Virus record (IMG/VR): IMGVR_UViG_3300034418_007641
Span: 1-22,085 of that record
Length of the DNA stretch: 22,085 bases
Reading direction: 5' to 3' (one strand)
From: a virus
Below are positions 1 through 10,800 of the stretch, one piece after another (within the stretch, counting starts at the first letter, position 1; every line of letters begins with the position of its first letter). The notes under the pieces were generated by a model, which saw nothing but the letters and a program-made list of their open reading frames with translations, searched no databases and was not told the DNA's origin. A program made the position numbers and the translations under genes.

Positions 1-362
1 AATTGTGCTGTAAATCTTGAGAGAGCACCTTGTCCCGGACGATATCTTACTGATCTCTTAGATCGAATAACACCATATCCATATGCACCAGTTCCTGATG
101 AAACCTCCATTAAAGTATTGGAGGTAGTAATCCCAGTGCCTGATGAATATCTTTCAAACCTATCAGAGTTTAATCCATATAATCCGTCAAGTTGAAATAC
201 TGGTGTAATTTGAGATACAATCTGTTCTCCAAATGCACCACTTCCACTTGCAGTTCCATTACACCCATCAATGTTGCCGTATCTATCGGCACACATATAA
301 ACCTCAAAAAGAGATCTCTCTTGGTTGAGGTAATCTTGGTTATTTTTATTCCACTGTGCCAT
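1..362 (-). CDS. Conserved marine T4-like phage virion protein, N-terminal part (3' end outside window)
   Basis: The ATG is at 360-362 and the frame stays open to the left edge, giving about 120 residues. The protein begins MAQWNKNNQDYLNQERSLFE and later has a Gly/Ser/Thr-rich stretch and a basic segment (VIRSKRSVRYRPGQGALSRF). From memory, an N-terminus of this MA-x-WNKN...YL-x-Q-(E/D)R-(S/T)-LFEV type recurs in structural proteins of cyanophages and pelagic myoviruses, but I know of no assigned function. A GGAG Shine-Dalgarno lies 6 nt upstream, and the ATG overlaps the previous stop as TAATG, so translation is probably coupled to the 102-residue gene. It could be a fibre-like or capsid-surface protein; this is inference from context only. 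I am confident it is a real gene and unsure of its role. Confidence 0.75.
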   Translation of the reverse strand, partial: MAQWNKNNQDYLNQERSLFEVYMCADRYGNIDGCNGTASGSGAFGEQIVSQITPVFQLDGLYGLNSDRFERYSSGTGITTSNTLMEVSSGTGAYGYGVIRSKRSVRYRPGQGALSRFTAQ

Positions 363-670
363 TAATCACTCCACGATAATCTTTCTGGTTGGTATCTTTG
401 TGCGTTTTTGATTCTTGAAGTATTTACCTGACCAGGATAAATCTGATGAACAATCGCTCCAGGATACTCTCCCTGAATTTGTTCTGCAAGTTCATTCTTA
501 GAAAGCATCTTGCCTTCTACTTCTAAACGATAAAGTTTACCTTCCCACATAACATCAGCAAAGAAAGATTCTTGTGCAGGTTCTGGTTGAGAACCCCCTA
601 CGTTGAGGGTTCCATTGAAATCACCGTTGATGGTGATACTTTCTGAGAGAAATTGTTGAAAACTTTTCAT
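362..670 (-). CDS. Small protein with T4 internal-protein-like capsid-targeting N-terminus
   Basis: This is a 102-residue protein. Its first ten residues, MKSFQQFLSE, closely match the capsid-targeting sequence of T4 internal proteins IPI and IPIII (MKTYQEFIAE). In T4 that peptide directs the protein into the prohead and is removed by protease gp21 after the Glu. Here the equivalent cut would be after E10, leaving a body that starts SITINGDFNG. The rest is a short linker, then a compact domain (about 36-85) with Trp, Tyr and Arg (VMWEGKLYRLEVEG, ELAEQIQGEYPGAIVHQIYP). GGAAG lies 9 nt before the ATG, and the gene starts 3 nt after the upstream stop. The likely role is a head-internal or DNA-coinjected protein; that is inference. 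The body matches nothing whose function I know. Confidence 0.85.
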   Translation of the reverse strand: MKSFQQFLSESITINGDFNGTLNVGGSQPEPAQESFFADVMWEGKLYRLEVEGKMLSKNELAEQIQGEYPGAIVHQIYPGQVNTSRIKNAQRYQPERLSWSD

Positions 671-673
671 TGA

Positions 674-2659
674 TCAGCACTTCCAGCGACGACGGGCTTT
701 GCAAACGGGTTTGTCTGGGGTCTTGGAGCAATCAATGTTATGCATATCTTGTTGACCCTTAGATCTTGCACAGAAAGACTTTCTGCGTTTGGCATCTTTA
801 CTTCCTGGTTTTGGATCACCAGTTACGGCAGTCTTCAACTTAGAACCAGGATTCTCACGACGATATGCCTTAACTGCTGCAGGACTCATACCATCAGTCT
901 TATCGGATTTATTGACCTTTTGCCAATCCTCATCAAGTTCTGCTCTCCAATCAGAAAACTCTTCTTTTTTAACTTTTACTTTTTTAGAATCTCCAGTTCT
1001 AAACTTACCAAATGGAGTTGGAAGTTGTTCTCCATATTCTCCAGTTTTCTTTTCAACTTTGTCATTGGGATCTACATCACCATCAACGTCATAATCAATT
1101 CTTGTTGATGCTTTTTTTGAAAGTTTCTTGAGATTACCTCCACCAATTTTTGATTCTAAATCAGATTTTGTTGGTGTGTGCTTTGCCTCATCAATTTCAT
1201 TTTCCTCTTTCTTCACACAGTTATTATAGGTCTTACCAAACATTTTTTTAGTTCCCTTTTTCTCATATCCCTTCCAACACTTTTGACCTTCATCAATCTG
1301 TTCACCTTTTAGTGGTTCTGGTTTGATAAGATCAACAAACTCATATTCAGTTGCCTTGAAGTCTTCTCTCCAGTTTGAGAAATCGTAACTCTCAGACTTA
1401 TTTCCCCAGTTATCGGCACCAACCTTACGGCACTTTACAAGTGCTCCAGAGGCATATGCAGAAGGCCAGACAGAATAACGTGACTTGACCTTATGATAGC
1501 AGGCATCTTTGGTGCCACTACCTTTACCCGGTTTATCCTTTGCCTCTGTTACCTCTTCTTTCTTCTTTTTATCAAACTTTCTACCAATAGCACCACCTAC
1601 TCTTTCCCCTACTTCACCACCAACAATTCCAGTTCCAATAGATGCAGCTCCTGCACCAGCAGCACCACCTGCTATACCACCAACGACACCACCAATAACT
1701 TTACCAATTTTTTCTCCCTTTCCTGCTTCATTTTTTTGTATTGCATTTTTAGTTGCAGTTTTACCAGATTTTAATCCACCTTGTACTGCTCTACCACCTC
1801 TTTTTCCAGCAACTTTAATACCGGATCTAACTAATCCACTGTATTCTAACAATTCCATTTCTTCTTTTTTCATTTTCTTCTTTGGATCTGTAGAAACATA
1901 AGTTGGTTTTGCAGCACCAGATTTTTGTTGCTGTCCCGGATCTGCTGCCTTTTTTCTTCTTTGAGCAGAAAGTCTCTCTGCCTTACTCATACTTGCTCTT
2001 TTTGCCGAAGAAACGCACTTTGGTGTTCCTTCACCAGGTTCATCACTTGCACAGGTTCCACCTGTAACAACATTAACCCAACCACTTTTGCCATCTTTTG
2101 ACTTGGATTTACCAAACCAATCACGAAGTCCCTCTTCTTTGACAGTCTCTTCGTTGGTTACATAATCTGCTGCGGTATCAATATAATCTGCTGCTTTGGT
2201 AATTTTTGATTGAACCCATGCTTGCAGATTACCCTCACCTTTTTTACCCATCTTCTTTTGAAGACGTTTGGCAGCATTAGTAACGGTTTTCAATTCAGAT
2301 CTTGCCATAGAGTATTCGTGATCTTTCTTTTCTTCACTCATCTTCTTTCTTCCTTGACAATGCGCTCTCTGAGAAAATCCTTTTGGGTTATTGCAATCGA
2401 TGGACCTTTTATACTTTTGACTCCAACCTTCGGAGACGCCTCCGCCATTAGAACCCCCATTAGAGTCCCCATTCCCACTTCCATTGCCATTCGAGTGATT
2501 TCCATTTTTCTTTGTATCCTTCTGTTCTTCCCCGTTTTCTTTGCGGAGCCAACCACCAAGACCCACACGATATCCTGTTGGGATTCGCTTACACTTTTTA
2601 TCTTTATAGCAGTAGTAGTATCCCTGCTTACACTTTTTCATTTTTAGTGTTTGAGTCAT
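674..2659 (-). CDS. Modular Cys/Lys-rich protein of marine T4-like phages (putative virion/head-internal polyprotein)
   Basis: This 661-residue, very basic protein looks like a string of modules. They are: N-terminal KKCKQGYYYCYKDKKC (8-23); a Gly/Asn/Ser linker (about 52-75); a Cys module (SIDCNNPKGF...AHC, 86-101) followed by a helical segment (115-167); a DWFGK...GWVNVVTGGTC...PKC module (180-215) with a Lys/Arg tail; a glycine-zipper segment (about 314-360); an ACYHKVKSRY...VKC module (386-410); a CWKGYEKKGTKKMFGKTYNNC module (461-481); a calcium-loop-like DYDVDGDVD (522-530); and a C-terminal module ending CKARRRWKC. From memory, similar modules occur in shuffled order in cyanophage and pelagiphage proteins of unknown function. 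Several (L/I/V)-x-E sites lie near module edges. The ATG at 2659 overlaps gp16 by 32 nt. An ATG at 2641 (MKKCK...) is a credible alternative that would remove six residues; neither start has a well-spaced Shine-Dalgarno. Confidence 0.8.
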   Translation of the reverse strand: MTQTLKMKKCKQGYYYCYKDKKCKRIPTGYRVGLGGWLRKENGEEQKDTKKNGNHSNGNGSGNGDSNGGSNGGGVSEGWSQKYKRSIDCNNPKGFSQRAHCQGRKKMSEEKKDHEYSMARSELKTVTNAAKRLQKKMGKKGEGNLQAWVQSKITKAADYIDTAADYVTNEETVKEEGLRDWFGKSKSKDGKSGWVNVVTGGTCASDEPGEGTPKCVSSAKRASMSKAERLSAQRRKKAADPGQQQKSGAAKPTYVSTDPKKKMKKEEMELLEYSGLVRSGIKVAGKRGGRAVQGGLKSGKTATKNAIQKNEAGKGEKIGKVIGGVVGGIAGGAAGAGAASIGTGIVGGEVGERVGGAIGRKFDKKKKEEVTEAKDKPGKGSGTKDACYHKVKSRYSVWPSAYASGALVKCRKVGADNWGNKSESYDFSNWREDFKATEYEFVDLIKPEPLKGEQIDEGQKCWKGYEKKGTKKMFGKTYNNCVKKEENEIDEAKHTPTKSDLESKIGGGNLKKLSKKASTRIDYDVDGDVDPNDKVEKKTGEYGEQLPTPFGKFRTGDSKKVKVKKEEFSDWRAELDEDWQKVNKSDKTDGMSPAAVKAYRRENPGSKLKTAVTGDPKPGSKDAKRRKSFCARSKGQQDMHNIDCSKTPDKPVCKARRRWKC

Positions 2660-7291: not shown

Positions 7292-7626
7292 TACCTGGTG
7301 ACTCCCCCTCGTATTAGTGCTGCACCCTCTACAGCTTTATATTCTCTGCCAGCATTTGTAATTTTTACGTCAAAAACGTACCTTCCAGGTTTCAAACTAC
7401 TGGATTGTGAACCAGTTAAAGAAATTGAAATGATACCTAGTTCAGGACTAGTAATGGTAGATCCAAAAGATACTGATGTAGTTGCACCATAATGTTTTCT
7501 AAGCTGTGCAGTTGTTGATGCATCTGTTAAAATCAAAGGCGAATTGGTTCTAGTGTCTTCCAACTGAAATGACGTATCAAAATCATATCCTTGTTCGATC
7601 ACAATATTGGATACATAAACAGCCAT
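7291..7626 (-). CDS. Small predicted beta-sandwich virion protein
   Basis: This 111-residue protein is the first gene after the late promoter at 7655-7662 and is joined to the fibre-like gene by TAATG. It alternates hydrophobic and polar residues as in an all-beta fold: VSNIVIEQGYDFDTSFQLED, then a linker of Thr and Ser, then GIISISLTGSQSSSLKPGRY and FDVKITNAGREYKAVEGAAL. This pattern (a D-x-S-F-x-L-E-D strand, then PGRYVFDVKI) resembles beta-sandwich adaptor domains of tail-fibre or baseplate proteins in other phages, but I cannot name the family. Being co-transcribed with the fibre-like gene, it could be an attachment or assembly partner. No good Shine-Dalgarno is visible near the ATG. Confidence 0.75.
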   Translation of the reverse strand: MAVYVSNIVIEQGYDFDTSFQLEDTRTNSPLILTDASTTAQLRKHYGATTSVSFGSTITSPELGIISISLTGSQSSSLKPGRYVFDVKITNAGREYKAVEGAALIRGGVTR

Positions 7627-7646
7627 TATTTTATGATGCTAATATA

Positions 7647-7675
7647 CCTCTAGCTATTTATATTAATTGCTGAGG
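7647..7675. repeat. Imperfect inverted repeat enclosing the late promoter
   Basis: On the minus strand CCTCAGC (7675-7669) can pair with GCTAGAGG (7654-7647) with one bulged base. The loop is 14 nt and contains TATAAATA. There is no U-tract after it, so it is not a convincing intrinsic terminator. It could be chance. Confidence 0.3.
7655..7662 (-). promoter_or_regulatory. T4-type late promoter (TATAAATA)
   Basis: On the minus strand the gap 7627-7679 contains TATAAATA, a perfect match to the T4 late promoter, which is read by host RNA polymerase carrying gp55 and gp33. Transcription would start about 6 nt downstream, leaving a leader of roughly 22 nt before the ATG at 7626. It should drive the small beta-sandwich gene, the fibre-like gene and gp13-gp16, and perhaps the genes after gp16. 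The element lies in the loop of an imperfect inverted repeat whose arms are 7647-7654 and 7669-7675. Confidence 0.8.
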
Positions 7676-7679
7676 CTAG

Positions 7680-7874
7680 TTATTTTTGAAGCAATTCTTT
7701 AAGAATACTTTTTATTTCATCAATATCTTTTCTCATATCATCCAACTCTTTTTTACGCAAATCTTTTTGCACTAAAGAGGTTACATATTGATTGTAACCG
7801 GCAGTATCGCAGTTTACGATAGCACCGGTATTTTCATCTCGATATAGATTTGAGTGTCCTTCTACCTTTATCAT
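7680..7874 (-). CDS. Small conserved coiled-coil protein of marine T4-like phages
   Basis: This 64-residue protein begins MIKVEGHSNLYRDENTGAIV, has NCDTAGYNQYVTSL in the middle, and ends in a charged helix (about 38-64; LRKKELDDMRKDIDEIKSIL) with heptad-like spacing, so a short coiled coil is likely. I recall near-identical small proteins in cyanophages, all without function. The ATG overlaps the stop of the DUF4815 gene as ATGA, so it is translationally coupled to it. This suggests a small partner or assembly factor for that giant virion protein, which is inference. It is the last gene before the late promoter at 7655-7662. Confidence 0.8.
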   Translation of the reverse strand: MIKVEGHSNLYRDENTGAIVNCDTAGYNQYVTSLVQKDLRKKELDDMRKDIDEIKSILKELLQK

Positions 7875-10800
7875 CTGAGTGCAATAACTCTAAGATCTGC
7901 GAAACGAGGTGCTTGTGCCTGATTGGAACTTGACATTACAATTTTAATACCATATCCAATGAAGAGATCCAGATTATCGACTGTGAACTCATATTCTAAA
8001 AATTCTCCACCTAGACTTGCTCTTACCTTTCTATCAGGTAATCCACTATTCTTAGATGGGTCAACAACTAATAATCCTTCTGTTGTTTGTTTCAGATTAT
8101 TATATCCTGGGAACAATTCATATGATTGTCCAACTTCACTAGAATCTGCCTTTATAGTCGTATATAGAACTCTGAAATCGGCATCTCCAGGTCTTTCTGC
8201 GGCAATGATAACTTTAAGTCCAGATGCGGGATTTTGGAGATTAGTTATATTTGAATAATATACTGATGCATGTGGATCGTCAAGTACAGAATTAACTCTA
8301 TTGTCACCTGGATAGTTTGTTATTGGTTTGTTGATTCTATTCAGATTAAATATGGATCTTGCAGATTCTAAATCTAATATTGGAGAAAGTGCATTATTTA
8401 GATCACTGGAGTTGAAAGTAATTGCAGTTGTAAATGATTTCTTTCTTGGCATAGCAGTTAGATATTGATTCTGATTTGCCTCAGATGCAACCATTCGAAC
8501 AGAATTTAAGGAATTGAGAGAATTAAGTTGAACATCCTCATATCCATTGTCATTGAAAGAAACCTCTGTACCATCAACACTTGTTGAACTTACAGTTCTA
8601 ATTTTTCCAGTTACGGAAGTTGTTGATCCAGGTGTCAGAATATCATATGAAGGAATTACTGCATCATACATTAAGTTTTCTGAGGCAGTTACTTTGTCTC
8701 CACCTACTAACTTTTCATCATTGAATGAAAGTTGTGGAGCATTTGCAGTCGCACCATCGTTTATTCTACTATTTCCTTTGGTGTTTGATCTATCAATCTT
8801 AATATGATAACTATCAATATCAAATGGTGCAACTATAGATGTTGTGATTCCATTGATTCTTCTCAATGAAACTCCACCAAACTCATATTTTTCCACAACA
8901 GAATTTGAGAAATGATTGACAGGGATGGTGCCATCAATAGCTCTACCACTTGGGGAAATGCTCAGTGTTCCACTACCAATATTGTTGTATCCGATAATCT
9001 CATTTCCAATCTTAACATATCCAACATATCCTCCACCAACTGGTCTTCCTTCAAAGGTTGTAAAGTTTGAAGTGGAAGCAACACTAATCGTTGATACTTC
9101 ATCAAGTGTTACTTGAGAAGTCAATACTGTTGCTGGAACATCTGATTTAATGTTATTAACTACAACTTTATTAGTAGTCGAATACATTCCGTGATTGAAG
9201 TGGTCTACCTTGAAATAATCTCCCGAGTAAACTCCACCATTTGCAGAAGCAGAAACGATATTAGTTCCCGCAGCAGAAACTATGGTAGTTGCATCACTAT
9301 AGTAACTTACGGCAGCACCTACAGCAAACTCCGTTCCACTAGTATCGAACTGACCTTGTACATTTGTGAGGTACAGTGTGTCTACACCATTGATTGCAGT
9401 AATCGTTATTCTTGCATCTCTACCAGTTTGAGTTGAAGTTGTTGAAGTTTGAATGCCAACAACATCTCCAACTTTGTAACCAGTTCCAAAGTCTGGGTGG
9501 ACAGTAGAATGTGCTACACCGGTAATAACTCCACTAGCGTTTGTAGTTATTCTAAGTTTGAGATTTTCCCCTTCACCAGAAATATTATAAGTGCTTACAA
9601 CTTCATTTGTAACACTTGCTGGATAACCAGAACCAGCAGTTGTGAGACCGACTGTTGAAACAGAACTACCTTGCCCAACAACTACTGCAGACCCACCATT
9701 ATTATTGACACCTGCAAGTTTTCTACCAACAGTTACAATACCAATAAAGTCACTATTAGTTGTTGTTACGATACCAATCTTTCCTTTCTTGGGAAGAGTA
9801 GTAATTGGATTATTGATTAATTCGGGAACATAAGTATTACTTTCGTCAAGTGGTGGATTATAGAAGTATGCAGTTCCCTGATTTGAGGTAAACTCTGCTT
9901 TATAGAGTTTAAACTTCAAATCCTGATTCTGATCAGTAGTCCAAATAGAACCATTTTGAGATTTGAATAATGATCCAAGAGCAAATTGCTTAGTGTATAT
10001 AACCTGATCAACATCTGGAAGTTGTTGGGTATTTATCGTCTTATTTCCCATAACCGCAGTCCAGACTTCATATTCATCACTTTGTTCTGAGACTAAAACG
10101 ACTGCATATTCTCTTCCTGGTGGTAAGAAGATGGGTTCTGGGAATCTAACATTTGTTGCAACTTCACCTGTAGAAGATGTTTGAATGAGTTGAGTTTCAA
10201 CTCCATCTTCGTTAATGGTTCTAGGTCTAAGAGTTACAGGAGTACCAATGACTTCAAGTGTTGGTGTTCCAAGTTGAGTAGATCTGATTTCAACTCTTAT
10301 GGGTGCATTTCCACTATCGATAGATGCAAAATATAGATCCACTGAGGTTAAAAATACTCCATTTACATCATCATCAGTATCGATATCAGATTTAACCTGA
10401 ATATTTCCACCAACTGTGAAAGTTTGCGCCAGTGGGTCTGCATATGTATTTGTGGTAACTCTTCTTCTTGTGGTAGTGGTTAATGAAGTGGTTAATGAAG
10501 TTCTCAAATTAACAGTATTAGAGATACTGACGTTAGTTCTTGTTGTTTCTCTTGCTACTGTTGATCTAAACTGTAACAGGGCTGCATTTGCACTATAGTT
10601 TGCTTCCGCAAAAGAAACCGAATTACTACCTGGTAATCCAGAGGCATTTGTGGGACTAGAAGTGAGTCTGTAAGTTTTTATGCCTGTTCGTATTCTAGTT
10701 GATGGTCTGGGTGTTTGATTTGGATCTCTTATAAAGAATGCTCCAATAAGATCTCCATAATTATCAGAGATCAACCTATTATCCTTTACAAATGCAATAG

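Follow-up and report, generated by a model that had tools for sequence, protein, structure and literature searches.

The tagged gene and its surroundings

The window analysed here is the whole of a 22-kb stretch (22,085 nucleotides) from an IMG/VR virus record, and its neighbouring genes led us to judge it a fragment of a T4-like cyanophage. Close to its start, an open reading frame (ORF) for a protein of 102 amino acids (aa) runs on the (-) strand from an ATG at 670 to a stop at 362. The ORF list thus bears out the gene proposed at 362-670 in the initial annotation, which had given no strand. The protein matched the PHROG family phrog_1742, annotated as of unknown function; Pfam, NCBIfam and PADLOC contained no family for it, and nothing credible was returned by Pfam. 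A Shine-Dalgarno-like GGAAG is located 9 nt before the ATG. The upstream gene (674..2659, (-)), whose stop lies 3 bases before the tagged gene, encodes a Lys-rich protein of 661 aa with a C-terminal DUF6321 domain (residues 586-659; 683..904, (-); domain search), and its counterpart in phage S-SCSM1 is a virion protein by mass spectrometry (MS). Downstream, the next gene has its ATG at 362-360, overlapping the tagged gene's stop codon. The window includes only the start of this downstream gene (1..362, (-)), whose product has a virion structural protein of cyanophages as a homologue.

According to the ORF translation, the 102-aa protein begins with MKSFQQFLSE, a capsid-targeting-like decapeptide (641..670, (-)) after which the rule for the T4 protease gp21 predicts a prohead-protease cut (after E10, L-S-E|S). 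Residues 11-24 (SITINGDFNGTLNV; 599..640, (-)) would form the N-terminus after the predicted cleavage. They are followed by a predicted folded core at residues 33-84 (419..574, (-)), modelled by AlphaFold2 as strand-strand-helix-strand.

Gene order was kept among relatives and ran gp13, gp14, gp15, gp16, a large DUF6321-type gene in most genomes, the tagged gene, a virion structural protein, gp17 and gp18. Insertions interrupted the gp13-gp18 order in some genomes, and the tagged gene was within the head/neck/terminase block in all genomes examined. By tblastn, the phrog_1742 protein was found in 139 phage records. Of these, 137 are named Synechococcus phage or Cyanophage; the remaining two carry a Prochlorococcus name, and both are Syn33, which was isolated on Synechococcus WH7803. 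A terL match was present in 377 + 61 Synechococcus- or Cyanophage-named records, and 137 of these ~438 had the phrog_1742 protein. As the terL records outnumber the tblastn records, the family is common, not universal, among these phages. No phrog_1742 match was found in the S-CREM2 genome, nor was a homologue of the 102-aa protein found in the gp16-gp17 region of S-SM1, so the S-SM1 proteome is no test of this protein.

Conservation of the leader and the body

One of the search patterns used to retrieve relatives was the N-terminus itself, whereas the phage tblastn and the body patterns were independent of it. Among the 60 tblastn homologues listed, all 60 alignments started at query residue 1. 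A decapeptide lost where the body is kept would have spoken against the reading in the initial annotation; instead, the two were conserved together in all 163 distinct homologues, the most distant of them at about 40% identity. Invariant throughout (163/163) were K2, F7 and E10; position 4 was always F or Y, and position 8 was always L, I or M, with Met in four sequences. In T4 IPIII, positions 4 and 7 serve targeting and positions 8 and 10 serve processing (PMC9026906). Each of these IPIII-type positions (aromatic 4, Phe7, position 8 and Glu10) was retained in 163/163 homologues.

Over the same 163 homologues, mean entropy was lower in residues 1-11 (0.51 bit) than in the remaining ones (1.26). 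The dN/dS ratio was 0.16 for the tag, 0.38 for the linker and 0.09 for the body, and the family is under strong purifying selection. The most constrained segment was residues 11-24, which are predicted to be disordered, yet show nearly no amino-acid change (dN/dS 0.012).

The AlphaFold2 model, built on a 68-sequence alignment, had an overall pLDDT of 72.6. Within residues 41-90, the averages per ten residues ranged from 71 to 92 and were mostly about 90. Residues 1-31 were predicted to be disordered, and the tag, being inside this region, would be accessible. The 102-aa protein is acidic (pI 4.9), as is its family (pI 4.5-5.2).

A T4-type leader on unrelated proteins

T4 IPI, IPII and IPIII share a ten-residue leader, MK[ST][FY]xxF[LI]xE, followed by a small body, and this leader is common to otherwise unrelated proteins. 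The 102-aa protein is alike in all these respects, with the L/I-x-E cut predicted here. In T4, the leader brings the internal proteins into the head, where gp21 processes them, and they are injected at infection. The initial annotation had likened its decapeptide to the targeting peptide of IPI and IPIII; in the sequences we fetched, the likeness stands for IPIII and was found also for IPII, both of which start MKTYQEFIAE. The resemblance ends with the leader: a blastp match to IPII was confined to residues 1-23, and a profile match to IPIII (5.7% probability) was leader-driven. The 102-aa protein is therefore outside the T4 internal protein families proper, having neither a body homologous to those of IPII and IPIII, the two compared, nor a basic mature protein. 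IPII and IPIII are basic (pI 9.6-9.7), unlike the acidic 102-aa family. Moreover, T4 internal proteins are variable and poorly conserved, whereas the 102-aa protein is strongly conserved and, again unlike them, has its gene among the late structural genes, close to gp16/gp17. The folds of IPI, gp67 and gp68 were absent from the fold-search list for the 102-aa protein, an absence that does not exclude them, and a PDB sequence profile search gave RPA alone (E 0.23), which is not credible.

We then scanned ten phage genomes, T4 among them, for a strict motif, ^M[KRN]x[FY]xxF[LIMFV]xE, at start codons. It occurred at 24 start codons, against 0.1 expected from shuffled sequences or 0.24 from its internal frequency, and these two controls rule out a chance match. 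Homologues across genomes are not independent among the 24 carriers, so bodies were counted instead; the motif was on at least 9 unrelated ones, including T4 IPII and IPIII, the positive controls, both of which the scan recovered. The initial annotation had suggested searching relatives for further tagged ORFs, and several of those found are published virion proteins. A relaxed motif gave many internal-start matches and was kept out of the statistics.

The cytidylyltransferase/NMNAT T4-GC190 carried the strict motif in seven cyanophage genomes, with tags such as MKKFSAFLNE (S-SM1), MKSFLQFLKE (S-SCSM1) and MKNFSSFLTE (S-CREM2). Its tag is of the same type as that of the 102-aa protein; unlike the latter, it is a nucleotidyltransferase of 286-440 aa, and most members have an AKxLGLxxxGxGxW module after the tag. 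The S-CREM2 carriers also included a SAM lyase (PF23780; MKDFDSFLEE) and an APH-like kinase (GTG start, KRFDAFLTE), which share the tag and, unlike the 102-aa protein, have enzyme bodies. Further carriers were two proteins of S-SRM01, a short S-SKS1 protein with a start like that of T4-GC190, and a stand-alone DUF6321 protein of S-CREM1 (MKTYNDFITE; locus L090 5605-5880 = S-CREM1 138886-139161; motif and domain match), which is very basic (pI 10.1). Elsewhere, DUF6321 forms the C-terminal end of the large protein encoded upstream. In a DNA pattern search, S-CBWM1, reported to have a virion NMNAT, gave no match.

A module AKxLGLxxxGxGxW(Y/A)D was observed right after the tag in cytidylyltransferases, the S-CREM2 kinase and the short S-SKS1 protein (L096 1820-3049; L195 7580-9847, (-); S-SKS1 72899-73234, (-); phrog_3561).

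Published proteomes place several tag carriers in virions. For S-CREM2, whose virion proteome is available with coordinates (PMC10665884 Table 3), all three strict carriers were MS-detected: ORF6 (the SAM lyase; locus L195 4705-7314, (-)), ORF14 (the kinase; 7580-9847, (-)) and ORF154 (the cytidylyltransferase/NMNAT). With 52 proteins detected and 221 annotated features, the chance of 3/3 is P=0.012, a value based on few proteins. Two relaxed carriers, ORF13 (MKDLHSFLTE) and ORF136 (MQTFSMFFSE, just after gp16), were also detected. So was a protein named 'Cas9' (838-2082 of the same locus, (-)), which has an offset version of the tag, RFASFMAE|A, at residues 18-25 and no domain in Pfam. NMNAT carriers were likewise found by MS in the virions of S-SCSM1 (PMC9602691) and, as T4-GC190, of S-SM1 (PMC3037559). 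The authors of the S-CREM2 study pointed out that non-structural virion proteins may be co-purified contaminants (PMC10665884).

The end of the tag also resembles a cleavage site in the major capsid protein. T4 gp21 cuts after L/I-x-E (PMC9026906), and the 65-residue propeptide of T4 gp23 ends FLTE|A. The equivalent place in cyanophage gp23 reads FLAE|A in S-SCSM1, FLSE|A in S-SKS1 and S-SRM01, and FLNE|A in S-CAM9; exceptions are LLTE|A in S-CREM2, ILNE|T in Syn33 and LMET in RB11-B. Because several cyanophage gp23 propeptides end alike, the last four residues of the tag resemble a site for the protease of the phage itself. A gp21-type protease, a gp22 core protein and gp23 are encoded in the relatives S-SKS1, S-SCSM1 and S-CREM2, and the 22-kb record of the window does not include that region.

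Proposed role and alternatives

The view of the decapeptide as a T4-type head-entry tag is better supported now than in the initial annotation. MKSFQQFLSE is most likely a T4-type capsid-targeting leader cleaved by gp21, because such a tag starts virion proteins detected by MS in S-CREM2, S-SCSM1 and S-SM1, and because gp23 propeptides end FL[SAN]E|A. During prohead assembly, the decapeptide would dock the 102-aa protein onto the scaffold core. A gp21-type prohead protease would cut after Glu10 (L-S-E|S) and the tag would be lost, leaving a 92-residue acidic protein with the new N-terminus SITINGDF. This protein would be kept in the mature head and would leave it with the DNA at infection. Judging from sequence, we consider it fairly probable that the 102-aa protein is a head-internal cargo protein of this kind, docked by its tag, cleaved and leaving with the DNA. 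Taken separately, the tag is very probably functional and the protein is probably present in the mature virion, while its ejection and action on the host are possible at a little below an even chance.

In the initial annotation, such a protein was a candidate injected anti-defence or host-takeover factor, with IPI, which protects T4 DNA from a restriction enzyme, as the T4 example. T4 Ip1-3 inhibit distinct GmrSD type IV restriction enzymes (PMC12373910). For the 102-aa protein, an IPI-like anti-restriction role is less well supported, given its pI of 4.9, strong purifying selection and fixed place in a structural gene block. With its acidic, conserved and syntenic body, the protein is more likely to have a conserved role in host takeover or in the virion than to counter restriction. 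Its conservation and its small body (strand-strand-helix-strand) point to a single conserved binding partner in the host (or the virion) more than to an arms race with restriction enzymes.

The tag may instead bring the protein into the head to serve there, in structure or packing, together with the DUF6321 protein encoded next to it, and not in the host. We regard this as unlikely. Using hmmsearch, we detected a phrog_1742-type domain within the DUF6321 proteins encoded upstream in S-CAM9, RB11-B and S-SCSM1, with E-values of 2e-11, 1.5e-6 and 7e-6 in a nine-protein search and of 4e-8, 0.004 and 0.018 in six-frame translations of ten genomes. As the S-SCSM1 protein is the one found in virions by MS, and as conservation is strong and synteny fixed, a structural partnership would fit. 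However, no copy of the domain was detectable in the upstream proteins of the window, Syn33 and S-RIM8, and a protein present in only 137 of ~438 terL-matched records is not an obligatory part of the head.

As a separate observation, the Lys-rich upstream DUF6321 proteins (window 674-2659, (-), and counterparts in L081, L084-L089 and L091) look like chains of modules, in many cases with a sequence resembling the tag or a gp21 site in front. Examples are ISFQQFQE before KCWKGY in S-RIM8, KSFEQFIGE shortly before DUF6321 in S-T4, and LSE before DWQSVN in S-SRM01. From these sequence patterns, the upstream proteins may be prohead-protease polyproteins.

It is rather unlikely that the 102-aa protein acts in assembly alone, docked to the prohead core and lost in maturation like T4 gp68 and most of gp22, without being injected. 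In T4, some core proteins leave no copies behind in the mature head (PMC9026906), and a conserved place in the late block, from gp16 to gp17, suits morphogenesis. In addition, the S-SCSM1 homologue, gp030, is outside the MS-detected virion proteins of that phage, and the products of both flanking genes, gp029 and gp031, were detected. This absence, like the acidic body, also counts against the cargo reading. However, gp030 yields only 2 tryptic peptides of 7-30 aa, compared with 3 to 7 for four small detected proteins, and with just two usable peptides its non-detection is a weak negative. Core proteins are processed at several positions; the 102-aa protein has a single predicted site, N-terminal to a conserved folded body, and other tagged proteins are enzymes detected in virions.

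A more specific version of the injected-cargo reading is that the body binds cyanobacterial RNA polymerase (RNAP) as T7 Gp2 does, which we consider improbable. The first PDB match in Foldseek was T7 Gp2 in complex with E. coli RNAP (4lk0_M; E 0.12, probability 0.99, TM 0.65 when normalised by target length). Further Gp2 entries ranked high as well, as did YkzG, an RNAP-interacting protein; two BFVD phage 'RNA polymerase inhibitors' were in the fold list, and VIA-align with Gp2 gave Z 4.5 over 49 residues at 2.4 A. These Foldseek E-values are not significant, though, and a Z below 8 may reflect a mere common arrangement, with phi29 p6 and ribosomal proteins scoring alike. Homology to T7 Gp2 by sequence was not found (hhalign probability 0.1%), and Pfam offered nothing credible. 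The proteins may share a predicted strand-strand-helix-strand core; by profile they have no sequence similarity, and Gp2, which unlike the 102-aa protein lacks a leader, is synthesised in the infected cell and not carried in the head. The fold resemblance is thus weak and a lead only. Still more far-fetched is the idea that the tag is a shipping label for a host-takeover set (the NAD/nucleotide enzyme, the SAM lyase, the kinase, DUF6321 and the 102-aa protein), with the last as an injected Gp2-like RNAP inhibitor replacing the transcription takeover by T4 Alt. Least credible of all is a decapeptide unrelated to heads, arising by chance or as an unrelated N-terminal amphipathic segment: cleavage and packaging of the phrog_1742 family are predicted only, but the motif enrichment, the sharing of the tag by unrelated bodies and the likeness to gp23 propeptide ends argue against it.

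A literature search, which covered few subscription-journal papers, turned up no report of this kind of tag in cyanophages. Non-structural enzymes are a puzzling presence in cyanophage virion proteomes, and the authors could not tell cargo from contaminant (PMC10665884). A shared T4-type tag, if true, would explain how non-structural enzymes enter heads, and injected cyanophage proteins would then be findable by sequence search. The 102-aa protein would be a conserved candidate effector carried by phages of marine Synechococcus, a photosynthetic bacterium that is abundant worldwide.

A last observation concerns T4 itself, in which gp61.1 (54 aa; locus L194 953-1117, (-)) is a strict carrier starting MKTFKEFIKE. 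Its body resembles the segment of gp23 past the cleavage site (ISIGTTSGAVVNKGP vs NIAAGQTSGAVTQIGP), and from this likeness gp61.1 is possibly an unrecognised T4 head protein.
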